Assembly (NCBI GenBank): GCA_032622095.1
Contig: CP136063.1
Coordinates: forward strand, 216,771,982-216,835,981
Length of the DNA stretch: 64,000 nt
Origin: Siphonodentalium dalli
Taxonomy: Eukaryota; Mollusca; Scaphopoda; Gadilida; Siphonodentaliidae
Direction of reading: 5' to 3'
The notes beneath the pieces are model-generated. The model worked only from the letters and a program-made list of their open reading frames with translations, searched no databases and was not told the origin of the DNA. The stretch's first letter is position 1; every line of letters starts with the position of its first letter. This document shows, piece after piece, positions 25,600 through 37,165 of the stretch. The translations under genes and the position numbers were made by a program.

Positions 25600-26364
25600 A
25601 TTTCCCATTGTCTGAAGTCAACAAAAATGTGCAAAAAGCTATGTATAGGTTATATACCCCTATATATAACTTCAGATTTACCCCACCCCTATATTCATAC
25701 CCGCCCATAACGACGGTTCAGGGGTCAAGAACTTTACGGGCAGTATACAGCAAACATGTAGAGAACCGTAGCTGCCATATTTGCGCGTAAGTGTCTTATT
25801 GCAAGCTATTTGGGATAAATTAGTTGCTCATCTCCATCAAAGGAACACGGTTCCTATGTCCCTGACCACTGACTAAACTTGTCAATTTCACTTGCGCAGT
25901 TGTTTCACATGTCAACATTGTCTATATGGAATTGTAACCGGTCAGTTCATTTATAGGCGTGCGTGTCTATTGGCCAGACCAATAGGTATATGACTATCGA
26001 CAATACATACATATGTACAAAGATAAAAAAAATTGTGTTGTTCTGTGAGAGGGTGGCTCTAAGTGATTGCTTGAAAAATGAAATGGTGTAAACTGAAATC
26101 AACAACATTTTGCAAAAAGCAATGTAAAGGCTATATACCCCTATATATAACTTCAGATTTATCCCACCCCTATTTTCGTACCCACCCATAACGACGGTTC
26201 AGGAGTCAAGAACTTTACGGGCAGTATATAACAAACTTACAATATACGGTGTCTACGGGCAGTATATATACGGCCTGCTATTACTGTGGAAATAACTAAT
26301 TGGCATATTTGCACTTAAGTGTCTTATTGCAAGCTATCTGTTATAAATTGCTTGTTCATCGCCA
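25600..26364 (+). repeat. Satellite array, left segment
   Basis: One monomer plus a partial one, starting at the CCCCTATATATAACTTCAGA mark (25653 and 26131; spacing 478 bp). Shared blocks include CCATAACGACGGTTCAG, AAGAACTTTACGGGCAGTAT, GTGTCTTATTGCAAGCTAT and TGGCCAGACCAATA. The second monomer is cut by the LINE. Confidence 0.8.
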
Positions 26365-26595
26365 ATTTTCAATTCGTTTAATCTTTTTGACCCATAATAC
26401 ATAGGTATTAAGATAATATATAATACATTTTATGTACATGACTTACATAATAGATATACAAATGATATACATTATAATATATGAAAAGTATTTACAATAT
26501 AAATAATATACCTGTTTGCCATAGGTGCTGTCTGCTGACGCTATATACTATGGTGTCATATATGACTGATCCACACAAAGTGCATAGACACCCTC

Positions 26596-26624
26596 AATTA
26601 TATTACCAGCGAGGTAATATAATT
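26596..26624 (-). other. 3' UTR hairpin of the LINE
   Basis: AATTATATTACC and GGTAATATAATT form a perfect 12-bp stem with the 5-nt loop AGCGA, about 100 nt after the ORF2 end. LINE reverse transcriptases of this group often recognise a 3' stem-loop, so this is a candidate recognition site. Confidence 0.55.
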
Positions 26625-26718
26625 AAGAGTATGTATCCACTCTGGTTTAGTCGCTTGCACATGTTATTTCGTGTTAGGTTCGTAGGAATACTGTGTCATT
26701 TACTATCTTTTTCGGTAT

Positions 26719-26919
26719 CTACCCAAGCTTATCTGAATTTATAAGTTTATGATTGATTATTTTAATAAAGTCGCACAATTTCCGTATGTCTGTTGAATTG
26801 TTCTGGTTAAGTATTTCACTCATTGTGATAGTATTTTGTTTTTTGTTAGTAAATTTTGATAGTAATCGCTGTCTTTCGGGTGATAGTCTCTCGCATTCAA
26901 GAAGATAATGAAATTCATC
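26719..26919 (-). pseudogene. In-frame ORF2 tail after premature TGA
   Basis: Sixty-six sense codons continue the ORF2 frame. They complete the CCHC spacing C-x2-C-x9-H-x4-C when the stop counts as one residue. The same spacing class (x8) occurs in the truncated LINE at 4944-5798. That makes a single point mutation the simplest cause. Confidence 0.8.
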
Positions 26920-29900
26920 TCAAATCTTTCTGGAGTTACAGAGTGGACATAGTCGGTCAGTTTGTTCAGGTTTTCGCCAGCGTCCTGTTTCAATAGGTAA
27001 ATGGTGATTACTGGTTCTAAATTTACATAATGTAATCCGGTTTACTACGTTCAACGTTAGATACCTTTCAAAAGATAAGTCATGTTTAAAAATTTGGTAT
27101 ATCTTACCACGACTGGAGTTGTTCATATCAGTTTCCCAATTATCCGTGAATTGTGAAATTAAACTACACTTTATATACGAAACGAATTGGGCAGTATCCG
27201 GTATGCGTTCCATGTGCCATGCATGTAATTGGTTACAATGGTCTAATAAATCATAGATTCGGTGTAACAAAGGGAAATGATTAGCGTTGATATCGAACAT
27301 AGTCTGTGCTAATTTCAAAAGTATTCTGGGATATCTCACCTCCTCACTGTTCATAATTTTGCACCAATATTTTATTATTCTCGTGTTTATATACACGTCA
27401 ATTGGTAGTCTCCCACATTCCCCATACAGCATAAAGTTGGGAGTAGATGGCCTCAGGTGAAGAATATGCTTCATAAATTTTCGATGAACTTTTTCAAGAA
27501 TATCATTGTTACCGAAACCCCAAATCTCGCAACCATATAATAAAATTGGCATAACGTGCAAGTCGAACAAATCAAGTTGGGGTTTGATCGAGAGACAGTG
27601 CTTTCGCGAATTCCCAATAACTGAGTACATGGCTTTGGTAGCTTTTTCTGCCAGGGCCTTTTTTGCCGTCGTGAATGATCCAGATTTGCAAAATATTATT
27701 CCTAGGTAATTAAATTTGTTTACTGTTTCGATTCTTCTTCCTTTGAACAGAAATTTTGTCTTTTTTGGAAGACTGGTCTTCGAAAAGTTGACAATTTTCG
27801 TTTTCTCGATATTCACTGTTAATTTCCATTTATTGCAATATTTTTCAAAGAGGTCCAGTTGTTGTTGTAATACTTTTGGGGTTTCCGCCATGATTGTCGT
27901 ATCATCGGCGTACATAATCATGAATATTTTCACATAACAGTTGAGTCGATTCTCTATTTCTAGGTCTATTGTTTTTAAGCCCACTACGTCGTTATCAAGT
28001 AAATATTCTTGCAAATCGTTCAAGTACAGTGTGAATAGTAGGGGGGATAGGTTCTCACCTTGCCTAACACCAGCATGGCAGGGGAAGTAAATGGATTTAC
28101 TTCCCTCTGCTTGAACACAGGATTTAATATGATTATACATGTTGGCAATAACCGTAAATATTTTCCCATTGATCCCATATTTCAAAATTTTCATCCAAAG
28201 TCCTTGCCTCCACACCATGTCGAATGCCTTTTGGAAGTCAATGAACGCACATAATAATTTCTTGTTTAATTTTCTACTTATTTCAAATAATAAATTTAAA
28301 ATGAAAATGTTGTCGATAGTCGAATAATTTTTCCTGAAACCGGCCTGATTTTCTGATATAACGTCAAAATCGTCAGTGAATTGTCCCAAACGGTTGGATA
28401 AGATCTTAGTAAACAGTTTACCAAAACAACTCAGAAGGGTGATCGGCCTATAATTAATGGGGTCGGTCGGGTCACCCTTATTTTTGTAAAGAGGTACAAT
28501 AGTACCTATCACCCAATCTGCCGGTATTATCCCCGTGTTAAATACTATGTTAAACAATTTGCAGTATATGGCGATGAAAACATCTGAAGAGGCTTTGATA
28601 TAGTCATTGAGAATAAGATCATGGCCGCTTGATTTGTTATTTTTGAGACCCTTAATGGCTTGTCTTATTTCCTCTTCGGTGATCGGTCGGTTCAGGTCGG
28701 TATTCGCGTCTACGTTAAATAGTTCAATTATGTCCCGTTCTATTAATGGGTCGTCATCGTGTTTAGTCGCATTGATGTTCTGAAAATAATGTGTCAAATC
28801 ATCGAGAGTAGCATCAATGCGTTGAGAATTTCCGCCCCTAATTTTCTTCCAGAAATCACGCGGGCTACCGTGTTGTAAAGCTGACATTTCGCGAGTAATC
28901 ATATCTCTGTGTGCTCTAATTGATTTGTCCATTTCGCTTTTATAAACGCGAGACGCTTGTTTCATATCTCTATCTGAGGTGGAGTCCCGGCTTGATTTTT
29001 GAGCACGAGAAGCTCTCCGATAAGACTGTCGTGCAATTCGGCACGCTTCATTGAACCATGGTTTATTTTTACAATTTCTACGGTTATTCGACTGCCTAAT
29101 TGTCCGTTCAGTGTGTACACCTAAAGTATTTTCTGCCGTTGTTGTCATGACTTTGCTTATGGAGGTGACAATCATATTAATTGCTTCGGGGCACAACTCG
29201 TTCGGCTTGAGTGAATTCAATAAGTGGTGTATGCTGGAAATGGCATTATAATCAATATTTTCAACAAATTCTGGTCGTTTAGAAGGGTCCCACTTTTTTA
29301 CGCGGTTCGTTTTGCTGGCAGACGTCGTGTCATTGTCAGTGAGCCACGTACGTGCATATTCAGAATTGAGCGTTGTTACGAGACCGCAATGTATATCTGA
29401 TGCTAATGGGCTAAATTGGAGTACTTGGAAGTCCAATATAGCTGGTAGACCTGTCGCTAAAGATAATGTATAATCAATTACGGTCTTATTTTGACTGGTG
29501 AATGCGCCAACGTTTTTGTCTTTACCAGCCCTTCCGTTCAAAATAACAAATCCGTGATGTTGACATAAGTTCAAGAGCGAGATTCCATATTGGTTTCTGT
29601 TGTGGTCCTGGTTCTGTCTGGCTATAGGCATATTAGTCATGTGTAAATATATCAATTGTTCTGAAAGTATTTCGTGAAATATATCCGATTCGAACATGTC
29701 GTTGTCGGTACCATAATTACTAATATCAGTTTCAAGCGATGTACGTGCGTTGAAATCGCCAGTGATGAATATCTTATCTGTGCGGTTCGCTAAATTTAAG
29801 AACTCACTTTCTACTTCTGTAAATGCGTCTTTCGATGCGTAGTTACTACTTTCAGGTGGTATATATACTGCACCTATTATTACATGGAATTTACATGAAT

Positions 29901-30936
29901 TTTCTGACCTTTTAATCTCAATCCAATGTACAAACTTGGACGGCGTTTCAATGATTTTCGAAAATCTACAAAGTTCGTCTTTGATGCCAATGGCTATTCC
30001 ACCTGACCGTATTCGCGAAAGTTTTCGTCTATTTTTCATAAAAAAGGTATACCCCTTTAAATACAGTTTGTCACAGTCATCGGTTTTTGTTTCCGATAGA
30101 CATAAGACATGGTATTTAGAACAAAATTCCTGGAAATCCGGATATTCAAGTCTTTTTCGAAGACCACACACATTTAAGGACAAGATTTCGAAATTTCCTT
30201 CGTTGTTTTCGGAACTGAGGTCTTGTTCGAATGGATATATCTCAGCTACATCAAGATAATTATTTTTACACAAACATGGCGTATCTGTAATATTAATGTC
30301 ATCACAATAGTTTTCGTGCAAATATTCATTCATACAATCAATAGTATCGCCCTGATCATAATCAAGTGAGTCATTGTTATGTGATAAAGAACATTTATTT
30401 TCATTGGTGTTATCTACTAATTCTCGTGCGTCTTTTAAAATATCTGATAGGGGTTTAGTCTCTAGCGTTATAATGTGGTCTTTTTTAACTACACCACGAC
30501 ACTCACAGTCCGCTGTGATATGCTCCAAATTGTCACCAAGCGGAGTTAATTGATAGAGATCGGTGTTAGATGTTGTCCCGTAATTCATTATTCTATCATG
30601 AATATTACAGTACTCATAATCAGTTTCTGACTGCCAATCGCATTCCGATTGATCAAGTGAACAGTCTACCGTGGGTGTGTCTCTGTCACTGGGCCATACA
30701 GCTTGGGGCACGTGATCAAAACAGTCTACCATGCTTTGTTCATTATGACGCTCGCCCATGCGTTGTTCACAACTACGGTCATAATTAAAGTGGGATTCGG
30801 TAATGCATGTAGTCATGTTCAGGAGATCCGCATACACATTATCCCTTATGTTCTCAATCGGAACGTCTTTAGGAACAAATACACTTTCTCGAACGTTTCT
30901 GCGGACATCCGATAAATCAGTAGATGCATGTGACAT
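26920..30936 (-). CDS. LINE ORF2: APE endonuclease and reverse transcriptase
   Basis: 1,338 codons from ATG at 30936. Residues 1-245 are an N/D/S-rich extension with scattered Cys and no recognised domain. Residues ~249-520 are an apurinic-type endonuclease: N255, E282 (SETK), D394-x-N396 (GDFN), D488 (IDY) and D514/H516 (SDIH) are all present. Residues ~750-1085 are the reverse transcriptase: NYRPI (828-832), AFID-x5-D (D900, D906), GVRQG (956-960) and YADD (1009-1012). Residues 1305-1333 give FRTSNHHLPIETG and the first two Cys of a CCHC knuckle (C1330, C1333). The TGA at 26920-26922 falls inside that knuckle. The frame then stays open for 66 more codons, to TAG at 26719-26721, and these carry the missing His and Cys (DEFHYLLEC). 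The protein nicks target DNA and primes cDNA synthesis. Loss of the last 66 residues probably weakens RNA binding, unless the stop is read through. Confidence 0.93.
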   Translation of the reverse strand: MSHASTDLSDVRRNVRESVFVPKDVPIENIRDNVYADLLNMTTCITESHFNYDRSCEQRMGERHNEQSMVDCFDHVPQAVWPSDRDTPTVDCSLDQSECDWQSETDYEYCNIHDRIMNYGTTSNTDLYQLTPLGDNLEHITADCECRGVVKKDHIITLETKPLSDILKDARELVDNTNENKCSLSHNNDSLDYDQGDTIDCMNEYLHENYCDDINITDTPCLCKNNYLDVAEIYPFEQDLSSENNEGNFEILSLNVCGLRKRLEYPDFQEFCSKYHVLCLSETKTDDCDKLYLKGYTFFMKNRRKLSRIRSGGIAIGIKDELCRFSKIIETPSKFVHWIEIKRSENSCKFHVIIGAVYIPPESSNYASKDAFTEVESEFLNLANRTDKIFITGDFNARTSLETDISNYGTDNDMFESDIFHEILSEQLIYLHMTNMPIARQNQDHNRNQYGISLLNLCQHHGFVILNGRAGKDKNVGAFTSQNKTVIDYTLSLATGLPAILDFQVLQFSPLASDIHCGLVTTLNSEYARTWLTDNDTTSASKTNRVKKWDPSKRPEFVENIDYNAISSIHHLLNSLKPNELCPEAINMIVTSISKVMTTTAENTLGVHTERTIRQSNNRRNCKNKPWFNEACRIARQSYRRASRAQKSSRDSTSDRDMKQASRVYKSEMDKSIRAHRDMITREMSALQHGSPRDFWKKIRGGNSQRIDATLDDLTHYFQNINATKHDDDPLIERDIIELFNVDANTDLNRPITEEEIRQAIKGLKNNKSSGHDLILNDYIKASSDVFIAIYCKLFNIVFNTGIIPADWVIGTIVPLYKNKGDPTDPINYRPITLLSCFGKLFTKILSNRLGQFTDDFDVISENQAGFRKNYSTIDNIFILNLLFEISRKLNKKLLCAFIDFQKAFDMVWRQGLWMKILKYGINGKIFTVIANMYNHIKSCVQAEGSKSIYFPCHAGVRQGENLSPLLFTLYLNDLQEYLLDNDVVGLKTIDLEIENRLNCYVKIFMIMYADDTTIMAETPKVLQQQLDLFEKYCNKWKLTVNIEKTKIVNFSKTSLPKKTKFLFKGRRIETVNKFNYLGIIFCKSGSFTTAKKALAEKATKAMYSVIGNSRKHCLSIKPQLDLFDLHVMPILLYGCEIWGFGNNDILEKVHRKFMKHILHLRPSTPNFMLYGECGRLPIDVYINTRIIKYWCKIMNSEEVRYPRILLKLAQTMFDINANHFPLLHRIYDLLDHCNQLHAWHMERIPDTAQFVSYIKCSLISQFTDNWETDMNNSSRGKIYQIFKHDLSFERYLTLNVVNRITLCKFRTSNHHLPIETGRWRKPEQTDRLCPLCNSRKI

Positions 30937-30951
30937 AGTAGCAAACTTGTA

Positions 30952-31584
30952 TCACGTACTTGAATCAGTTACAAGATCTGGCGCCAAGCTATTACTATAT
31001 GGGTACTGTACTGTACCATTATGTTCGTAAGATGCGATGTCATTACACACGCTAGGATAGGGTGAGTTATCATTGTAATTATCAAAAACAGCATTTGAAC
31101 TCACTTTGTGACAAGCACTATCAGTTGTAGTGAGTGACAATGACATTGATGCATTTACATGCCCATTGTCAATTAACAATTTGCCGTTAACTTTATCGGT
31201 GTCGCTTTTTGTACAATTTTGTAATTGTAACTTATATGTGTCATGTAAGCTTAACTGAGTGCCGGTGTCCAGCAAATGAGAATTTGAATAACGTATTACA
31301 GTATCTGTGGCTTTTGGCGCTTTGATACAAACTTCGCCCCTAATGACATTCACATTTACTTGTTTGCTACTACTGTACGTACATTTACACTCAACATCAT
31401 CATTTTCAACACAACATATATCAGCCAGCTCAATATTGTTACATATACATGTTTCTAAATTAACATTATTTGAAGACATTTCACAAACATTGCCATACAT
31501 TATCTCCCGTGTTTCTCTCAAAATGTCGTAGGTGCTTAATAAGGGCGATTCAGGTTCGGTAGATTGAGAATTGGTGCGGACAAC
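30952..31584 (-). CDS. LINE intermediate zone, segment B (same frame as ORF2)
   Basis: An open stretch in the ORF2 frame runs from 31584 (just after a stop) to TGA at 30952-30954; the first ATG is at 31500. The protein is N/S/T-rich with several Cys pairs (ETCICNN, ADICCVEN, VECKCTY) and no recognised domain. Only 15 nt separate its TGA from the ORF2 ATG in the same frame. It overlaps the previous open segment by about 45 nt in another frame. It may be an N-terminal extension of ORF2 cut off by point mutation, or a separate linker ORF. Confidence 0.5.
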   Translation of the reverse strand, partial: VVRTNSQSTEPESPLLSTYDILRETREIMYGNVCEMSSNNVNLETCICNNIELADICCVENDDVECKCTYSSSKQVNVNVIRGEVCIKAPKATDTVIRYSNSHLLDTGTQLSLHDTYKLQLQNCTKSDTDKVNGKLLIDNGHVNASMSLSLTTTDSACHKVSSNAVFDNYNDNSPYPSVCNDIASYEHNGTVQYPYSNSLAPDLVTDSST

Positions 31585-32243
31585 TCACTATCGCGATCGG
31601 GATATGCGTCTACTTTGCTTGTCTCAGTCGCCTGACGTTTTGTGAGCGATACTCCTACTCCGACCATGTGAAATCTCGATCCATTGACAAAACCATTATT
31701 TGCAGTTCGGGTATTCAACTGGTCACCGTTACTAGCGCGACATGTCGAGTTCGGACTGACAGCGCGATTGCTATTGAGCACGTGATTTCTGTGTACCTGG
31801 CCTTCGTTACAACGGGTTGCGGTTGATTGGCTACAGTAACACGGGCAATCATTACGATTCAGCGGACTCAATGGATTACTAGAAGTCAACATTACATTGA
31901 GCGATATTGGTACGGTCACGTGATGTCTGTCTGGCTCGCCGTCAAAACAATGGTTTTCGGGTTGTTTTGGATTGACCGGCGCACGTGATATGTCATGAGA
32001 TAACGGTACACTGAGCGAAACTGGTGCGGTCACGTGATGTTTGTCTAGCTCGCCGTCATAACAATGGTTTTCGGTTTGTTTTGAATTGACCGATGTACTT
32101 GGTATTTGCTCGCACACTTGGGGAGATTGCACGGCAATGTTTGCAGAGTTACATGTATAACGTGTATATCCGAAGACATTAATGTTCTCATATCTAGTGA
32201 CAATATCTTGAGAACTGATATTATTACACAATTGATTAACAGT
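31536..32243 (-). CDS. LINE intermediate zone, segment A (ORF1 frame)
   Basis: After the ORF1 TGA (32244-32246) the same frame stays open for about 235 codons to TAA at 31536-31538. It has no early ATG. The product is N/S/T-rich and contains a 38-residue in-frame repeat with a 114-bp period: NHCYDGELDKHHVT and NHCFDGEPDRHHVT, at about 32075-32030 and 31960-31915. No domain recognised. It could be an ORF1 extension by TGA readthrough, or the start of a long ORF2 N-terminus that a frameshift near 31540-31584 separates from segment B. Confidence 0.45.
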   Translation of the reverse strand, partial: TVNQLCNNISSQDIVTRYENINVFGYTRYTCNSANIAVQSPQVCEQIPSTSVNSKQTENHCYDGELDKHHVTAPVSLSVPLSHDISRAPVNPKQPENHCFDGEPDRHHVTVPISLNVMLTSSNPLSPLNRNDCPCYCSQSTATRCNEGQVHRNHVLNSNRAVSPNSTCRASNGDQLNTRTANNGFVNGSRFHMVGVGVSLTKRQATETSKVDAYPDRDSELSAPILNLPNLNRPY

Positions 32244-34103
32244 TCATGTATTGACTTTCGGCATTTTTGGTCTGTCATTGGTGGGCGTGGTACTGTCTCT
32301 GGCACGCTTCACTCTGGTATCATCGGTGCATGTGTATTCAGATGCACCAACTAAACACGATACTAGTCTTGCTCTGCCATCCTCATTGAAGTGCAGTCCC
32401 GAATGGTCCCTCGCGTTATAAAGCGATTTCACTCCATTGCCATCTTTGGAACGGAACATTGCATTGTCAATGTACTTCAAATAGAATTTCCGCTTACACA
32501 GCCTCTCAGTATATTTGTTCACTCGAAGAGCAATCGAATTGTGATCTCTCATCTTAGCACCCAAGCCTTTCCTAGGTGGAATGCTGCACAAATTAACTGT
32601 AGCAAACGGAAACGCCTCGTGTACAGCAGAGGCACCACCACTGACGTCCATTTCAATCAGTTCCAGATCCGAATGGTTCTCCACTATATCGTTGGTGCCG
32701 AGGTGAACTGTTACCTTTTTAACCTCAAATCGGTCGACGCCTGACTTTGCACTGTTGATTAGTTTCTCCACTTCGGAATATTTAGCCCCTGAATATTGAA
32801 ACACTTTGATGTCATCCCTGCCCAATTTTAAACCACCGCAATTGCTCGCCCCGAGGACGATGGCTTTCACTAAACTCTGTTCATCCTCTTTATTTCCATC
32901 AACATTTCCATCTACAACTTTCCTGAAATCACCACATTCCATTTCGAGATTTCCATTGGTTTCGTCTGCATCACACTTTGTTTCAGTACTACCGTTTATT
33001 TCAGCATCAACATTTGTTTCGGCATTAACAACATCATCATCATCGACACCTGTGTTTGCATCATGTGTCTCATTTCCTCCAGCTTTACCAAAAACATCAT
33101 CACTTTGGGTTGAATCGCGTGTCACCTCACAGAAATCAATCAGATTAGCTACCGGTACTCTGTTGATTGGGTCATATTTATGATGTGTGTCTGCACTATA
33201 GGAGAACATAGATCCTAGCCGTTCACGATTGGTTGTCCAATCATCTCGACGATTATCGTTCGCGGGTTGTCTCTGCATGGTGGGCTGACTTTGTATGGGC
33301 TGTCGATTTCTACTCACATAATCATCAGTGGTACCGATAGCTGGTTTGTCTGGCGGTCTTTGTATTGGCTGCCGATTACTGCTCACAACATCATCAGTGG
33401 TAGTGTTTACAATAGTTGGCTTGCCTTTGCATATGGGATCATCTGAGCGGTGTCCAGGGTTGAGACATGATTTGCATACCATCTCATTTTCACATTGCCA
33501 AGATTTATGTGCACTACTGTAGCACCGCCCACATCTATTTTTGGCTGTACGGTCTTGGTCACATATTGTTGTCGGGAAATGTAGGTCATTGCAGTATTTA
33601 CATAAACACATTGTTTTGGAAGAGAACATTTGAATCAGGAATTTTCCCATCTTAACTTCACTTGGAATTTCTTCACAATCACTCTCAGCTATCTGCACAT
33701 AACGTACCCCTGTGTGCACGTGTGAACCTTGGTATGTCCCTCTCCTCATTGAATTTGGTACCACATTTCCGTAAGCAGAAAGAAATTTAACGATGTGGCC
33801 GTCACCGAGTTCGAATGGGACATTCCATATTGTCACATGTATAGTGCGATTTTCCACGTCATTGGGTCTGATAAATTCCCTGAACAATTTGAATCCACGT
33901 TCAATTAAGAAGTCCTTTGCCTCATATGAATGCAGAGTAATTAAGCATTCTTCATCAGTAACCTGAATGGCCGCGATATCGTCCGGGTTAACAACCCTCT
34001 CCACTCCGCGTAAGACATCTCTGCCATTTAAACGACCAAATTTTTGTCTATCGAATGAAACAGTTCTATCTCTGGACAGAGTCATGTCTGGCATGTATTC
34101 CAT
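32244..34103 (-). CDS. LINE ORF1: RRM-like, zinc knuckles, SGNH esterase
   Basis: An in-frame stop lies at 34140-34142 and the first ATG is at 34103. Counting from an upstream GTG at 34130 gives 628 codons; from the ATG it is 619. On the 628 scale, residues ~60-165 look like an RNA-recognition-type fold (TIHVTIWNVPFELGDG, GVRYVQI). Residues 175-234 hold Cys-rich knuckles, including C200-x2-C203-x4-H208-x4-C213 and C219-x2-C222-x4-H227-x6-C234. Residues 240-420 are a low-complexity D/N-rich linker. Residues ~421-595 are an SGNH/GDSL hydrolase: AIVLGASN with S429, HLGTND (478-481) and GLHFNEDG with H580. The usual D-x-x-H is S-x-x-H, with D575 two residues earlier. Esterase-bearing ORF1 proteins are known in CR1/L2 LINEs, where they bind nucleic acid and may contact membranes or lipids. 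Confidence 0.88.
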   Translation of the reverse strand: MEYMPDMTLSRDRTVSFDRQKFGRLNGRDVLRGVERVVNPDDIAAIQVTDEECLITLHSYEAKDFLIERGFKLFREFIRPNDVENRTIHVTIWNVPFELGDGHIVKFLSAYGNVVPNSMRRGTYQGSHVHTGVRYVQIAESDCEEIPSEVKMGKFLIQMFSSKTMCLCKYCNDLHFPTTICDQDRTAKNRCGRCYSSAHKSWQCENEMVCKSCLNPGHRSDDPICKGKPTIVNTTTDDVVSSNRQPIQRPPDKPAIGTTDDYVSRNRQPIQSQPTMQRQPANDNRRDDWTTNRERLGSMFSYSADTHHKYDPINRVPVANLIDFCEVTRDSTQSDDVFGKAGGNETHDANTGVDDDDVVNAETNVDAEINGSTETKCDADETNGNLEMECGDFRKVVDGNVDGNKEDEQSLVKAIVLGASNCGGLKLGRDDIKVFQYSGAKYSEVEKLINSAKSGVDRFEVKKVTVHLGTNDIVENHSDLELIEMDVSGGASAVHEAFPFATVNLCSIPPRKGLGAKMRDHNSIALRVNKYTERLCKRKFYLKYIDNAMFRSKDGNGVKSLYNARDHSGLHFNEDGRARLVSCLVGASEYTCTDDTRVKRARDSTTPTNDRPKMPKVNT

Positions 34104-34226
34104 TACTAACCTGGATAGTATAGTCCACACATAACAGTTTTAGAAAAATAATCCCGTGTTAATCCATTATTTAATCCATTATTTCATATTAATTGAAAAA
34201 TTCACAGAGGAAAAATACAAACAAAC

Positions 34227-34233
34227 CGCCATT
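34227..34233 (-). promoter_or_regulatory. YY1-like ATGGCGG near LINE 5' end
   Basis: On the minus strand, CAATGGCGG lies about 20 nt inside the inferred LINE 5' edge. In mammalian L1 a site of this kind directs the transcription start. Here it rests on motif and position only. Confidence 0.3.
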
Positions 34234-34252
34234 GTTCACGCATGCGGAAACC

Positions 34253-34509
34253 AGGAAGGAACATGATTCTTCTGTTCCTGACCGCTGACTAGACGTGTCA
34301 ATTGCACTTGCACTGTTGTTTCACGTGTCACCATTGTGTATTTTGGAATTGTAAACGGTTTGGGCATTTAGGGCGTGCGTGTCTACTTGGCCAGACCAAT
34401 AATGATTATTGGCAATGCATACATATGTACAAAACATGTTTTGTTCCTGATAGGGGGTCTGCGTCATTGTTTGAACAAACAAACTGTGTAAACTGAAGAT
34501 ATATAATAA

Positions 34510-34551
<42 letters not shown>

Positions 34552-35967
34552 CTTCATATTTACGCCACCCCTATTTGCATACCCACCCATAACGACGGTT
34601 CAGGACTCAAGAACTTTACGGGCATTATATAACAAACCTATAGAGAACCGTAGCTATATATACGGGGAGTATATACTGATTGTTATTACTGTGGAAATAT
34701 TCACGTACATTGTAAATAATTAGCATATCTGCTTGTAAGTGTCTTATTGCAAGCTATTTGGTATAAATTGTTGTTTCATCTCCAACAAGGAGCACGGTTC
34801 CTATGTCCCTGGCCGCTGACTATAGACTTGTCAGTTGCACTTGTGCTGTTGTTGCACGTGTCAACACTGTGTATATGGAATTGTAATCTGTCTGGTCATT
34901 TATAGCCGTGTGAGTCTATTTAGCCATACCAATAATTAGATAATTATTGGCATTACACACATATGTACAAACAAATATTTGTTGTTCTGTGAGATGGGGT
35001 TTAAGTGATTGTTTTAACAAACAAATGGTGTAAACTGAAGTTAACACAAAATTACAAAAAAACTTTGTATAGGTTATATACCCATATATATAACTTCAGA
35101 TTTATCCCACCCCTATTTGCATACCACCCATAACGACGGTTCAGCAGGCAAGAACGTTACGGGCACTATATATAAACCTATATTTCCACAGTAACCACGG
35201 GCAGTATATACTGCCTGTTATTACTGTGGAAATATGCACATCAATAATTGGCATATTTGCACGTAAGTGTCTCATTGCAAGCTATTTGGTATAAATTGCT
35301 TTTTCATCTCTAGCAAGGAACACGGTTCATATGTCCCTGACCGCTGACTAGACTTGTCAATCGCACTTGCGCTGTTGTTTCACGTGTCAACATTGTGTAT
35401 ATGGAATTTTCAACGGCCTGGTCATTAAAAGGCGTTCGGGTCTATTTGACCAGACCAATAAGTAGATTATTATGGGCAATACATACATATGTAAAAAAAA
35501 CAAGAAAATATATGTTGTTCTGTGAGAGGGGGTTTAAGTGATTGTTTTAACAAACAAATGGTGTAAACTGAAGTCAACACAAAATTACAAAACACTTTGT
35601 ATAGGTTATATACCCCTATATATAACTTCAGATTTATCCCACCCCAATTTCCATATCACACAAAACGACGGTTCAGTGTGGCAAGAACGTACGGGCAGCA
35701 TACAACAAACCTATATTTCCACAGTAACTACGGGCAGTATATACTGCATGTTATTATTGTGGAAATATGCACATAAATAATTGGCACATTTGCACGTAAG
35801 CGTCTTATTGCAAGATATTTGGTATAAATTGCTTTTTCATGGCCAGCAATTAGGAACACGGTTCATGTGTCCCTGACCGCTGATTAGACTTGTCAATTGC
35901 ACTTGCGTTGTTGTTTCGCGTGTCAACAGTGTATATGGAATTTTAAACGGTCTGGTCTGGCCATTAA
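34253..35967 (+). repeat. Satellite array, middle segment
   Basis: The array resumes right after the LINE, with unit marks at about 34547, 35078 and 35607 (spacing 531 and 529 bp). Later monomers contain an imperfect palindrome, CCACAGTAA...TTACTGTGG around GGCAGTATATACTGCC (for example 35183-35235). The last monomer is interrupted at 35967. Confidence 0.85.
34513..34550. repeat. (TA)n microsatellite
   Basis: Nineteen TA units replace the usual pre-mark region of one satellite monomer. Confidence 0.9.
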
Positions 35968-36871
35968 GTGTGCATTTACACTGATACAGAACTGTACACA
36001 GATCTACACGCAGACTAGTGTAAACGTGTTAATATAGAAATGCACACAGAAAGAAAACGGTACTCGTCCCTGTGGGAAAAAATCGTGTCCGCTATACGTC
36101 AGGGTCAACGCCGAAGCATTGCGACAAGCAAATCTGTTTTGATTAATTGTTACTCGGGCTTGGCGAATAATGTGTTACAGTTTTCGTTGTCATTTCAACC
36201 CATGTATTTCGTATATTCAAGATGGACAGGGACATGTCAACCGGGGGTGAGGGGTGTCTCACCCCAACTTTTGTCAAAATTTTCAACAGTTGGAAATTTC
36301 ATACCTGACAAAACATTAGTTGTAATTTCCAAACCAACAATAGGTTGAAAATGATATTGTAGTTTGATTTTCAAACATTTTGTAGTATTGTTTTCTGACC
36401 AATATTTGCATAATTTCCTACCTTATATGGACAGATTGTGCCCTGGTCCCTCCCCGTGGCCAGTCAAAACTGCTAGTTAATTTAATAAAAACAATATTGT
36501 CCTACATTTGGTCAACATTGTCATTAGAATTGTCATCAGTTGGAAATTTGGCTACATTTGGTCAAATACAGGGTGTTGTAGGATGGATACCCACTCCATA
36601 CCAATCCAAAATGACCACCTCCCAGATGGTGTCAAACAGGAGACCTATATATATATTCTGACACGGCACATACCAAATCGCTGTTGTCTGCTGGTAGTTG
36701 ATCCATTTTTATGTCTGGCCTAAACTGAAACGACTCCTAGTTAGTTGTCAATTACCAGAGTACTGGTCAGCGCGCGTTCACTATTAGTCATCATGTTGTG
36801 ATGACAGTAATGCACGACACGTGACTTCACACAGATCTGTATACAGATCTATACACAGTGTAAACACACCC
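35968..36871. mobile_element. 904-bp Harbinger-like MITE in satellite
   Basis: TAA duplications (35965-35967 and 36872-36874) flank termini GTGTGCATTTACACTG and (inverted) GGGTGTGTTTACACTG. Extended subterminal similarity comes from ACAGATCT(A/G) and ACTGTACACAG words. The empty site CATTAAAAGGCG is seen in the neighbouring monomer at 35423. The interior has RepA-like sequence in inverse orientation (36225-36420). The start matches the partial copy at 911. Confidence 0.8.
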
Positions 36872-37165
36872 TAAAAGGCGTTCGGGTCTATTTGACCAGA
36901 CCAATAAGTAGATGATTATTGGCAGTACATACATATGTACAAACACAAGAAAATATTTGTTGTTCTGTGAGAGGCTGGTTTAAGTGATTGTTTTAACAAA
37001 CAAATGGTGTAATCTGAAGTCAACACAAATTTGCAAACAACTTTGTGTAGGTTATATATCCCGCTATATATAAATTCAGATTTATCCCATCCCAGTTTTC
37101 ATACCATCCATAACGACGGTTCAGGAGGCAAGAACGTTACGGGCAGTATATAACAGAGAGATATA
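36872..37165 (+). repeat. Satellite array, right segment
   Basis: The interrupted monomer continues (AAAGGCGTTCGGGTCTATTT). The last unit mark is near 37058 and the array ends after ACGGGCAGTATATAACA. Without the MITE the monomer is about 544 bp. Confidence 0.8.

Follow-up and report, generated by a model that had tools for sequence, protein, structure and literature searches.

The stretch between ORF1 and ORF2 of an esterase-type LINE from the scaphopod Siphonodentalium dalli is the N-terminal part of ORF2, and ORF2 is quite probably reached by read-through of the ORF1 UGA stop codon, which would yield a minor ORF1–ORF2 fusion protein in the manner of Gag-Pol. The element lies within a 64,000-nucleotide stretch of genomic DNA (the window), in which the copy is damaged. 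Our reading builds on features seen directly in the genomic copies: the frame relation between the two ORFs, the conserved UGA, the openness of the frame from its first codon, and the lesions private to the window copy.

The element is encoded entirely on the minus strand. The ORF1 frame is open from 34139 to 32244, the portion between its first ATG and the TGA being 32244..34103, and it closes with the UGA at 32244..32246, the proposed read-through site. Beyond this stop lies the zone (30937..32243), which in sister copies is in frame with both ORF1 and ORF2 as an N-terminal extension of ORF2. In the window copy the zone is split. Segment A (32243–31536) keeps the ORF1 frame beyond the TGA, while segment B (31584–30952) follows the ORF2 frame up to a second TGA (30952..30954) 15 nt before the ORF2 ATG at 30936. 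The two overlap in different frames by 49 nt and neither has a Pfam match up to E 1, much as a sequence-only reading of the window had described them. The zone contains two tandem copies of a motif that includes Cys-x-Asp-Gly and His-His (31888..32105), encoded by a 104-nt direct repeat of 85% identity; protein alignment reveals that this motif is also repeated in families B and C. The remainder of the extension, which runs from the in-frame ATG up to the endonuclease (30217..30936), harbors an E-Y-x5-R-I-x2-Y motif (30577..30621) that is invariant in 8 aligned ORF2 extensions and coincides with a small pLDDT peak. An AP-type endonuclease domain (29746..30183; Pfam Exo_endo_phos, E 3.1e-05 and 24.3 bits, just under the 24.5 cut-off) shares ORF2 with a reverse transcriptase (RT) domain (27694..28473; Pfam RVT_1, E 8.3e-38, 130.6 bits). 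ORF2 ends at 26920, where a third nonsense codon (26920..26922; GGA in the sister copy L012) truncates its C-terminus. We infer from this domain content, which also supplies the clade name, an APE-type LINE of the Jockey/CR1/L2 group. The LINE is flanked on both sides by a ~530-bp tandem repeat array with a palindromic stretch (window 25600–26400 and 34200–37150).

Comparison with sister copies accounts for the broken state of the zone. Searching the 2.2-Gb host genome with the zone as a DNA query returned 43 matches. Besides the window copy, 20 of these were full-length at 95–98% identity, whereby 16 exceed the window copy by 25 nt and 4 differ by other lengths. We retrieved 18 of the 20 (L001–L018) along with two older copies (L019 and L020, at 83% of the zone). 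The 25 nt that are missing from the window copy, at a deletion site placed at 31571..31572 by pairwise alignment with L012, are present in all 18 close copies, and each of the 18 has TTA (Leu) at the position of the second TGA of the window. Restoring the 25 nt joins segments A and B in one frame. Between the ORF1 stop and the former ORF2 ATG, 17 of the 18 close copies have a single open frame (437–445 codons, usually 444); the sole close copy with a stop in the zone, L015, has one TGA. The frame is open for at least 1823–1824 codons, up to the end of the retrieved DNA, in seven of the 18, and many of the 18 are broken elsewhere, in ORF1 or ORF2.

Judged from these copies, the zone is the coding sequence of a damaged copy, namely the start of ORF2, and ORF2 is by the same comparison a protein with ~690 residues ahead of its endonuclease. 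This bears out the earlier suggestion that ORF2 may once have had over 600 N-terminal residues: in L012 the endonuclease motif begins at codon 697 counted from the ORF1 stop. A separate third ORF, which had been offered as another possibility, was rejected because both of its boundaries, the frame break and the second TGA, are lesions private to the window copy; damage in a single copy can thus mimic a third ORF. The remaining suggestion, an extension of ORF1, holds in a sense that had not been stated: ORF1, the zone and ORF2 form one frame, with a single conserved UGA interrupting it.

The ORF1 protein itself was examined by profile and structure searches. Its SGNH (GDSL) esterase-like domain in the window (32370..32825) matches Pfam Lipase_GDSL_2 with an E of 2.4e-06 and 28.6 bits, under the cut-off of 32.9 bits. 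In an alignment of 11 ORF1 members from eight families, many rows of which are partial, 10 of the 11 match Lipase_GDSL_2 at E ≤0.01, the L012 row being under the curated cut-off. The predicted model of the L012 C-terminal domain has pLDDT values of ~84–94, and a Foldseek search with this domain returned PAF acetylhydrolases and GDSL-like lipases (best E 4.5e-09), while a PDB sequence search with ORF1 gave no match up to E 0.1. The profile and model matches assign ORF1 to the esterase type (type IV), with a predicted SGNH/GDSL fold. Of the candidate SGNH catalytic blocks, GASN and GTND-like ones are present in most ORF1 rows, and the last is SGLH in the majority, RGIH in family H and DGVH in family G, so that the putative catalytic Asp is often missing. 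N-terminal to the esterase domain, two Cys/His knuckles (33425..33541) were recognized by eye in the translation and the alignment, and are presumably CCHC-like; they have no Pfam match. The ORF1 N-terminus may form an RRM, as in the ORF1 types described in the available text of PMC4120745.

The ORF1 TGA is kept in all 20 retrieved family A copies and in the window, and in the A copies the frame following it is the ORF1 frame, open from codon 1. To this family we added relatives obtained by a protein search with the endonuclease-RT region (family B, ~70% identity, and family C, ~64%), and further families from an ORF1 search and from RT matches in long ORFs. The first-round junctions comprised six from B (L021, L024, L029–L032), four from C (L027, L033–L035), four from D (L036–L039), two from E (L040, L041), two from F (L042, L043) and one each from G (L045), H (L046) and I (L044, where only the ORF1 tail is visible). 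In all of these the ORF1 tail runs into TGA and the same frame continues. Several carry damage elsewhere: ORF1 of L027, L032, L034 and L035 contains a stop or frame break further upstream, another insertion disrupts L021 shortly past the junction, and L041 changes frame after 31 codons, its sister L040 being open for 540. L025 (family C), counted apart, is an exception in which a deletion spanning the junction leaves TAA, after which the same frame is open for 1709 codons. Five loci with no identifiable junction (L022, L023, L026, L028 and L047) were left out of the count; L047 has a TAG followed by 1007 open codons and was not counted because its preceding 70 codons are unlike the ORF1 tail.

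A second round relied on searches with ORF1 tails, which gave overlapping listings of at least 148, at least 151 and at least 150 matches. From these, 24 loci (L053–L076; ~170–280 nt each) were hand-picked, their stop codons being unknown at the time of choice; 21 were selected for diversity and a match reaching or nearly reaching the ORF1 end, and three (L058, L073 and L074) for listed frames ~2000 codons long. In 23 of the 24 the same frame has no stop up to the end of the stretch; it follows UGA in 22 and GGA in one. The other two frames together hold stops in 22 of 22 UGA cases, in L069 in one of them only. The locus with GGA in place of UGA, L058 (C3:84929091-84929281, minus strand), has an open frame of 2001 codons, and is thus a natural fusion frame; its sister L059 retains the UGA, and the frame there is 542 codons. 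L063 has a TAA and a broken frame. L073 (C1:62216600-62216880) and L074 (C5:90299050-90299330) have the UGA despite their long listed frames; the frames ending at their ORF1 UGA are listed at 2033 and 1917 codons, respectively, far exceeding other ORF1s.

Altogether, 64 of 67 junctions have a UGA after which the same frame stays open (A 21, including the window, B 6, C 4, D 4, E 2, F 2, G 1, H 1, I 1, and the 22 of the second round), the non-UGA junctions being L025, L063 and L058, and the ORF1 frame continues, open from codon 1, in 66 of the 67. The shortest open run behind the UGA is the 31 codons of L041; runs are usually far longer or reach the end of the stretch. Clustering of 36 UGA rows (the 22 of the second round and one to three representatives per family A–I) by their first 45 codons resulted in 28, 27 and 23 clusters at 50, 40 and 35% identity, with stops in those codons in none of the 36 rows; the families are related and stem from a single genome, so they are not fully independent. 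As controls we inspected five stretches upstream of other RT matches, in four of which a LINE has its ORF2 ATG 4–37 codons from the frame start, its endonuclease close by and no ORF1 frame entering ORF2, although this control set is weak, being small and possibly 5'-truncated, with the fifth stretch belonging to another retroelement. An SGNH-like ORF of 223 codons, identified by eye, was seen at L051 (C8:146689000-146691500), ~0.8 kb upstream of the gag-like ORF of another retroelement.

The openness of the extension exceeds what base composition predicts. Composition-expected stops are 6.5–7.6% in representatives of A–H, and at the ~6.7% of L012 a run of 400 open codons has a chance probability of ~1e-12. 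The ATG-free open stretches behind the UGA in A–H span 117, 160, 4, 27, 229, 29, 17 and 144 codons, respectively, and the probability that all eight are open is ~1e-22 if the families were independent, which is not fully so. When the differences between copies were randomized, 10.4 stops were expected over 540 codons in a C sister pair versus 0 seen (a value reached in none of 5000 trials), 3.5 over 590 codons in B (P 0.022) and 3.8 over 250 codons in A (P 0.015); these values are conditional, since each compared stretch runs only as far as one copy has its first stop, and pre-ATG stretches alone give a non-significant P of 0.07–0.25.

Two outcomes had been named in advance as telling against a coding zone, a consensus riddled with stops and a lack of purifying selection. 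The result is mixed: the zone is not stop-riddled, whereas residue-level purifying selection is weak by dN/dS. In family A the pre-ATG ratios are 0.84 against L020 and 1.16 against L019, those after the ATG are 1.08 and 1.23 against the older copies, and the extensions of L019 and L020 compared with each other give 0.63 and 0.24. Ratios in B are 0.66–0.71 before the ATG and 0.21–0.74 after it, with intervals that mostly span 1, and the region after the ATG gives 0.55 (0.41–0.75) in C; D gives 0.87. The end of ORF1 has ratios of 0.09–0.13 in the cleaner pairs of A, B and C and 0.28–0.37 in pairs with L032; D gives 0.68 and the L019–L020 comparison 1.59, these last two with wide intervals. A position profile shows little codon-position periodicity over the initial 300 nt behind the UGA. 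A first reading of the dN/dS data as strongly reduced synonymous change in the extension was discarded, as third-position divergence is mostly within the ORF1 range; it is lower in the first ~300 nt and near 2701–2850 of L012.

Extensions of other families are ~18–29% identical to that of A (alignment without E and F). The L012 extension model has a mean pLDDT of 27 and is predicted to be disordered, and a PDB sequence search with the extension gave no match up to E 1. A weak Pfam match to CDtoxinA (E 0.0037) in one of 8 aligned extensions was taken as chance, the 7 others being without it. We read the extension as a fast-evolving, probably disordered protein with few conserved short motifs, the frame of which would be held open because a stop would deprive the element of its RT. 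Long in-frame runs of aspartate, seemingly expansions of GAY triplets, occur in the extensions of L032, L040, L044, L045 and L056.

How ORF2 is translated from such a junction could be explained in ways other than read-through. Ribosomes might terminate ORF1 at the UGA and re-initiate nearby, producing a separate ORF2 protein; re-initiation is known for SART1 and has been proposed for L1, according to the portion of PMC5972666 available. Family C would suit such a mechanism, as its ATG lies 4–5 codons past the UGA and a UGGGA is located 58 nt before the stop, and in-frame ATGs also come early in G (codon 18), D (codon 28) and F (codon 30), as well as in the older A copies L019 and L020 (codon 22) and one B copy (codon 24). 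We nevertheless consider re-initiation unlikely. No Met is present within 15 codons of the UGA in 25 of the 28 cluster representatives, nor within 45 codons in 11 of the 28, so that a SART1-type start adjoining the ORF1 stop is largely absent, and UGGGA within 120 nt upstream is restricted to family C (4 of 24 rows, families A–H). Moreover, re-initiation requires no fixed frame, yet the ORF1 frame continues open in nearly every junction. Family C may have switched to re-initiation, with the caveat that the pentamer could easily be chance. We give still less credence to an ORF2 that starts at an internal ATG, behind an untranslated stretch whose openness was inherited from an older fused ORF. 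In-frame ATGs are available at codons 118 and 445 in family A; the weak codon-position bias and the dN/dS of ~1 in the first 300 nt past the UGA would also be expected of such a stretch. However, internal ATG use would free the pre-ATG stretch to fill with stops, and its openness therefore disfavors this explanation: A, B, E and H have open ATG-free stretches of 117–229 codons despite the low identity of the extensions, and the randomized C pair, within the conditional limits of that test, points the same way.

Two further explanations fare worse still. The UGA could encode selenocysteine or be spliced out of the RNA, and it is the case that the stop is always UGA among undeleted, unbroken junctions and that a Cys codon comes next in D, F, G, H and I. 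But a SECIS search of window positions 26000–34600, which covers the window copy alone, gave no match up to E 5, the frame is open from codon 1 past the stop, and DNA across the junction is missing in L025 only, of the 67; we regard recoding or splicing of this kind as highly improbable. Finally, the zone could be decayed or captured non-coding sequence that is open by chance in the window, consistent with segments that have no Pfam or PDB sequence match, apart from the one weak Pfam match in one of eight extensions, and that are predicted to be disordered. The copy comparison contradicts this idea and leaves it barely credible, as 17 of 18 close copies have the zone open and so, in strongly diverged form, do many families.

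Read-through of the UGA thus fits best with the shared frame, the openness from the first codon and the frequent lack of a nearby ATG; the earliest in-frame ATG is at codon 118 in the close A copies, 145 in H, 230 in E and 159–161 in three of six B copies. By this mechanism, most ribosomes would halt at the UGA to release the ORF1 protein, and a minority would pass it to produce an ORF1-extension-endonuclease-RT fusion, comparable to Gag and Gag-Pol, with the extension serving as a flexible tether dotted with a few short conserved motifs. What we infer from the junctions is the read-through event, the resulting fusion and the function of the extension. UGA is the leakiest stop in eukaryotes, and UGA followed by C is the classical leaky context. 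Among the 28 clusters the UGA is followed by U in 19, by A in 8 and by C in 1. No stable structure was found downstream of the UGA by simple, pseudoknot-free folding; the lowest folding z values were -1.9 (60 nt, one B copy) and -2.0 (150 nt, E), with others ranging from about -1.2 to +2.2. Points against read-through include the absence of a downstream structure, the absence of UGA-C except in one cluster, the early ATGs in some families and the extension dN/dS of ~1 in A. The open frames behind the TAA of L025 and the TAG of L047, the kinship of the families and the hand selection of L053–L076 also weigh against it.

The identity of the stop codon provides a further clue. Single transitions can interchange stops. 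Between families A–H, two-fold codons agree in 172 of 320 pairwise comparisons for K, E and Q and in 288 of 566 for N, D, H, C, F and Y, and all 8 columns in which six or more families share a single two-fold residue show mixed codons. Because these codons are scrambled between families yet the UGA is constant, the UGA looks selected rather than kept by inertia alone; stop identity would be retained beyond neutral expectation, though shared descent limits the strength of this comparison.

From the junction sequences we consider it fairly likely that these elements represent a large, diverse clade of animal esterase LINEs in which the RT is made only as a read-through fusion, with no free ORF2 protein, and is tethered to the RNA-packaging protein by a long disordered linker. 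How LINE ORF2 is translated is a standing question, for which the known answers are re-initiation or a proposed internal entry. If our reading is correct, these LINEs set the ratio of structural to enzymatic protein as retroviruses do, and their RNPs would assemble by fusion, as with Gag-Pol. The some two dozen families in one genome also provide a natural series of junctions bearing on UGA leakiness without evident structure.

Several known systems are comparable. The non-LTR Group 3 of Paramecium tetraurelia has ORF1 and ORF2 in the same frame, as in the present LINEs, and its authors suggest read-through (PMC5405496); it is unlike them in being a single group in a ciliate clade of its own, and the portion of that paper available to us makes no mention of an esterase ORF1 or a long extension. 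Tca2, an LTR element of Candida albicans, likewise has an in-frame UGA between two ORFs, gag and pol, with the production of pol unclear; according to the text available, 300 nt around this UGA gave no read-through in baker's yeast (PMC2194720). A possible pseudoknot follows the Tca2 UGA, whereas in the present LINEs simple folding alone was examined, with nothing found. In Moloney murine leukaemia virus a same-frame stop between gag and pol is read through to give an RT fusion (PMC5009743), but this is a retrovirus that uses UAG and a downstream pseudoknot, as described in the part of that source available. SART1, a silkworm non-LTR element, is a LINE with ORF2 coupled to ORF1 termination, but differs in its overlapping UAAUG, at which re-initiation produces ORF2 as a separate protein (PMC5972666, in part). 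LINEs with a type IV ORF1, such as ZfL2-1, share the SGNH esterase in ORF1 and the endonuclease and RT in ORF2 (PMC4120745). The accessible text of the same paper reports some domains at the ORF2 start in a few subgroups and, within its Jockey-group data, esterase ORF1s in two vertebrate subgroups only, and does not contain the terms "stop codon" and "readthrough"; esterases are recorded in several clades and phyla in the portion of PMC3905857 available. Unlike the ZfL2-1 type, the present LINEs have CCHC-like knuckles before the esterase and up to ~690 ORF2 residues before the endonuclease. Our search of the open-access literature returned no metazoan LINE with such read-through; the one LINE precedent found there is Paramecium Group 3, the other precedents being LTR elements.

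The genomic positions of the zone copies reveal two minor features. Same-strand pairs of similar copies lie 5–9 kb apart (C4:19126738/C4:19135610 and C1:121308539/C1:121313761), as in tandem insertion or local duplication, and several zone copies are split into two matches with a few bases of overlap between their query ends, like target-site duplications around an insertion.
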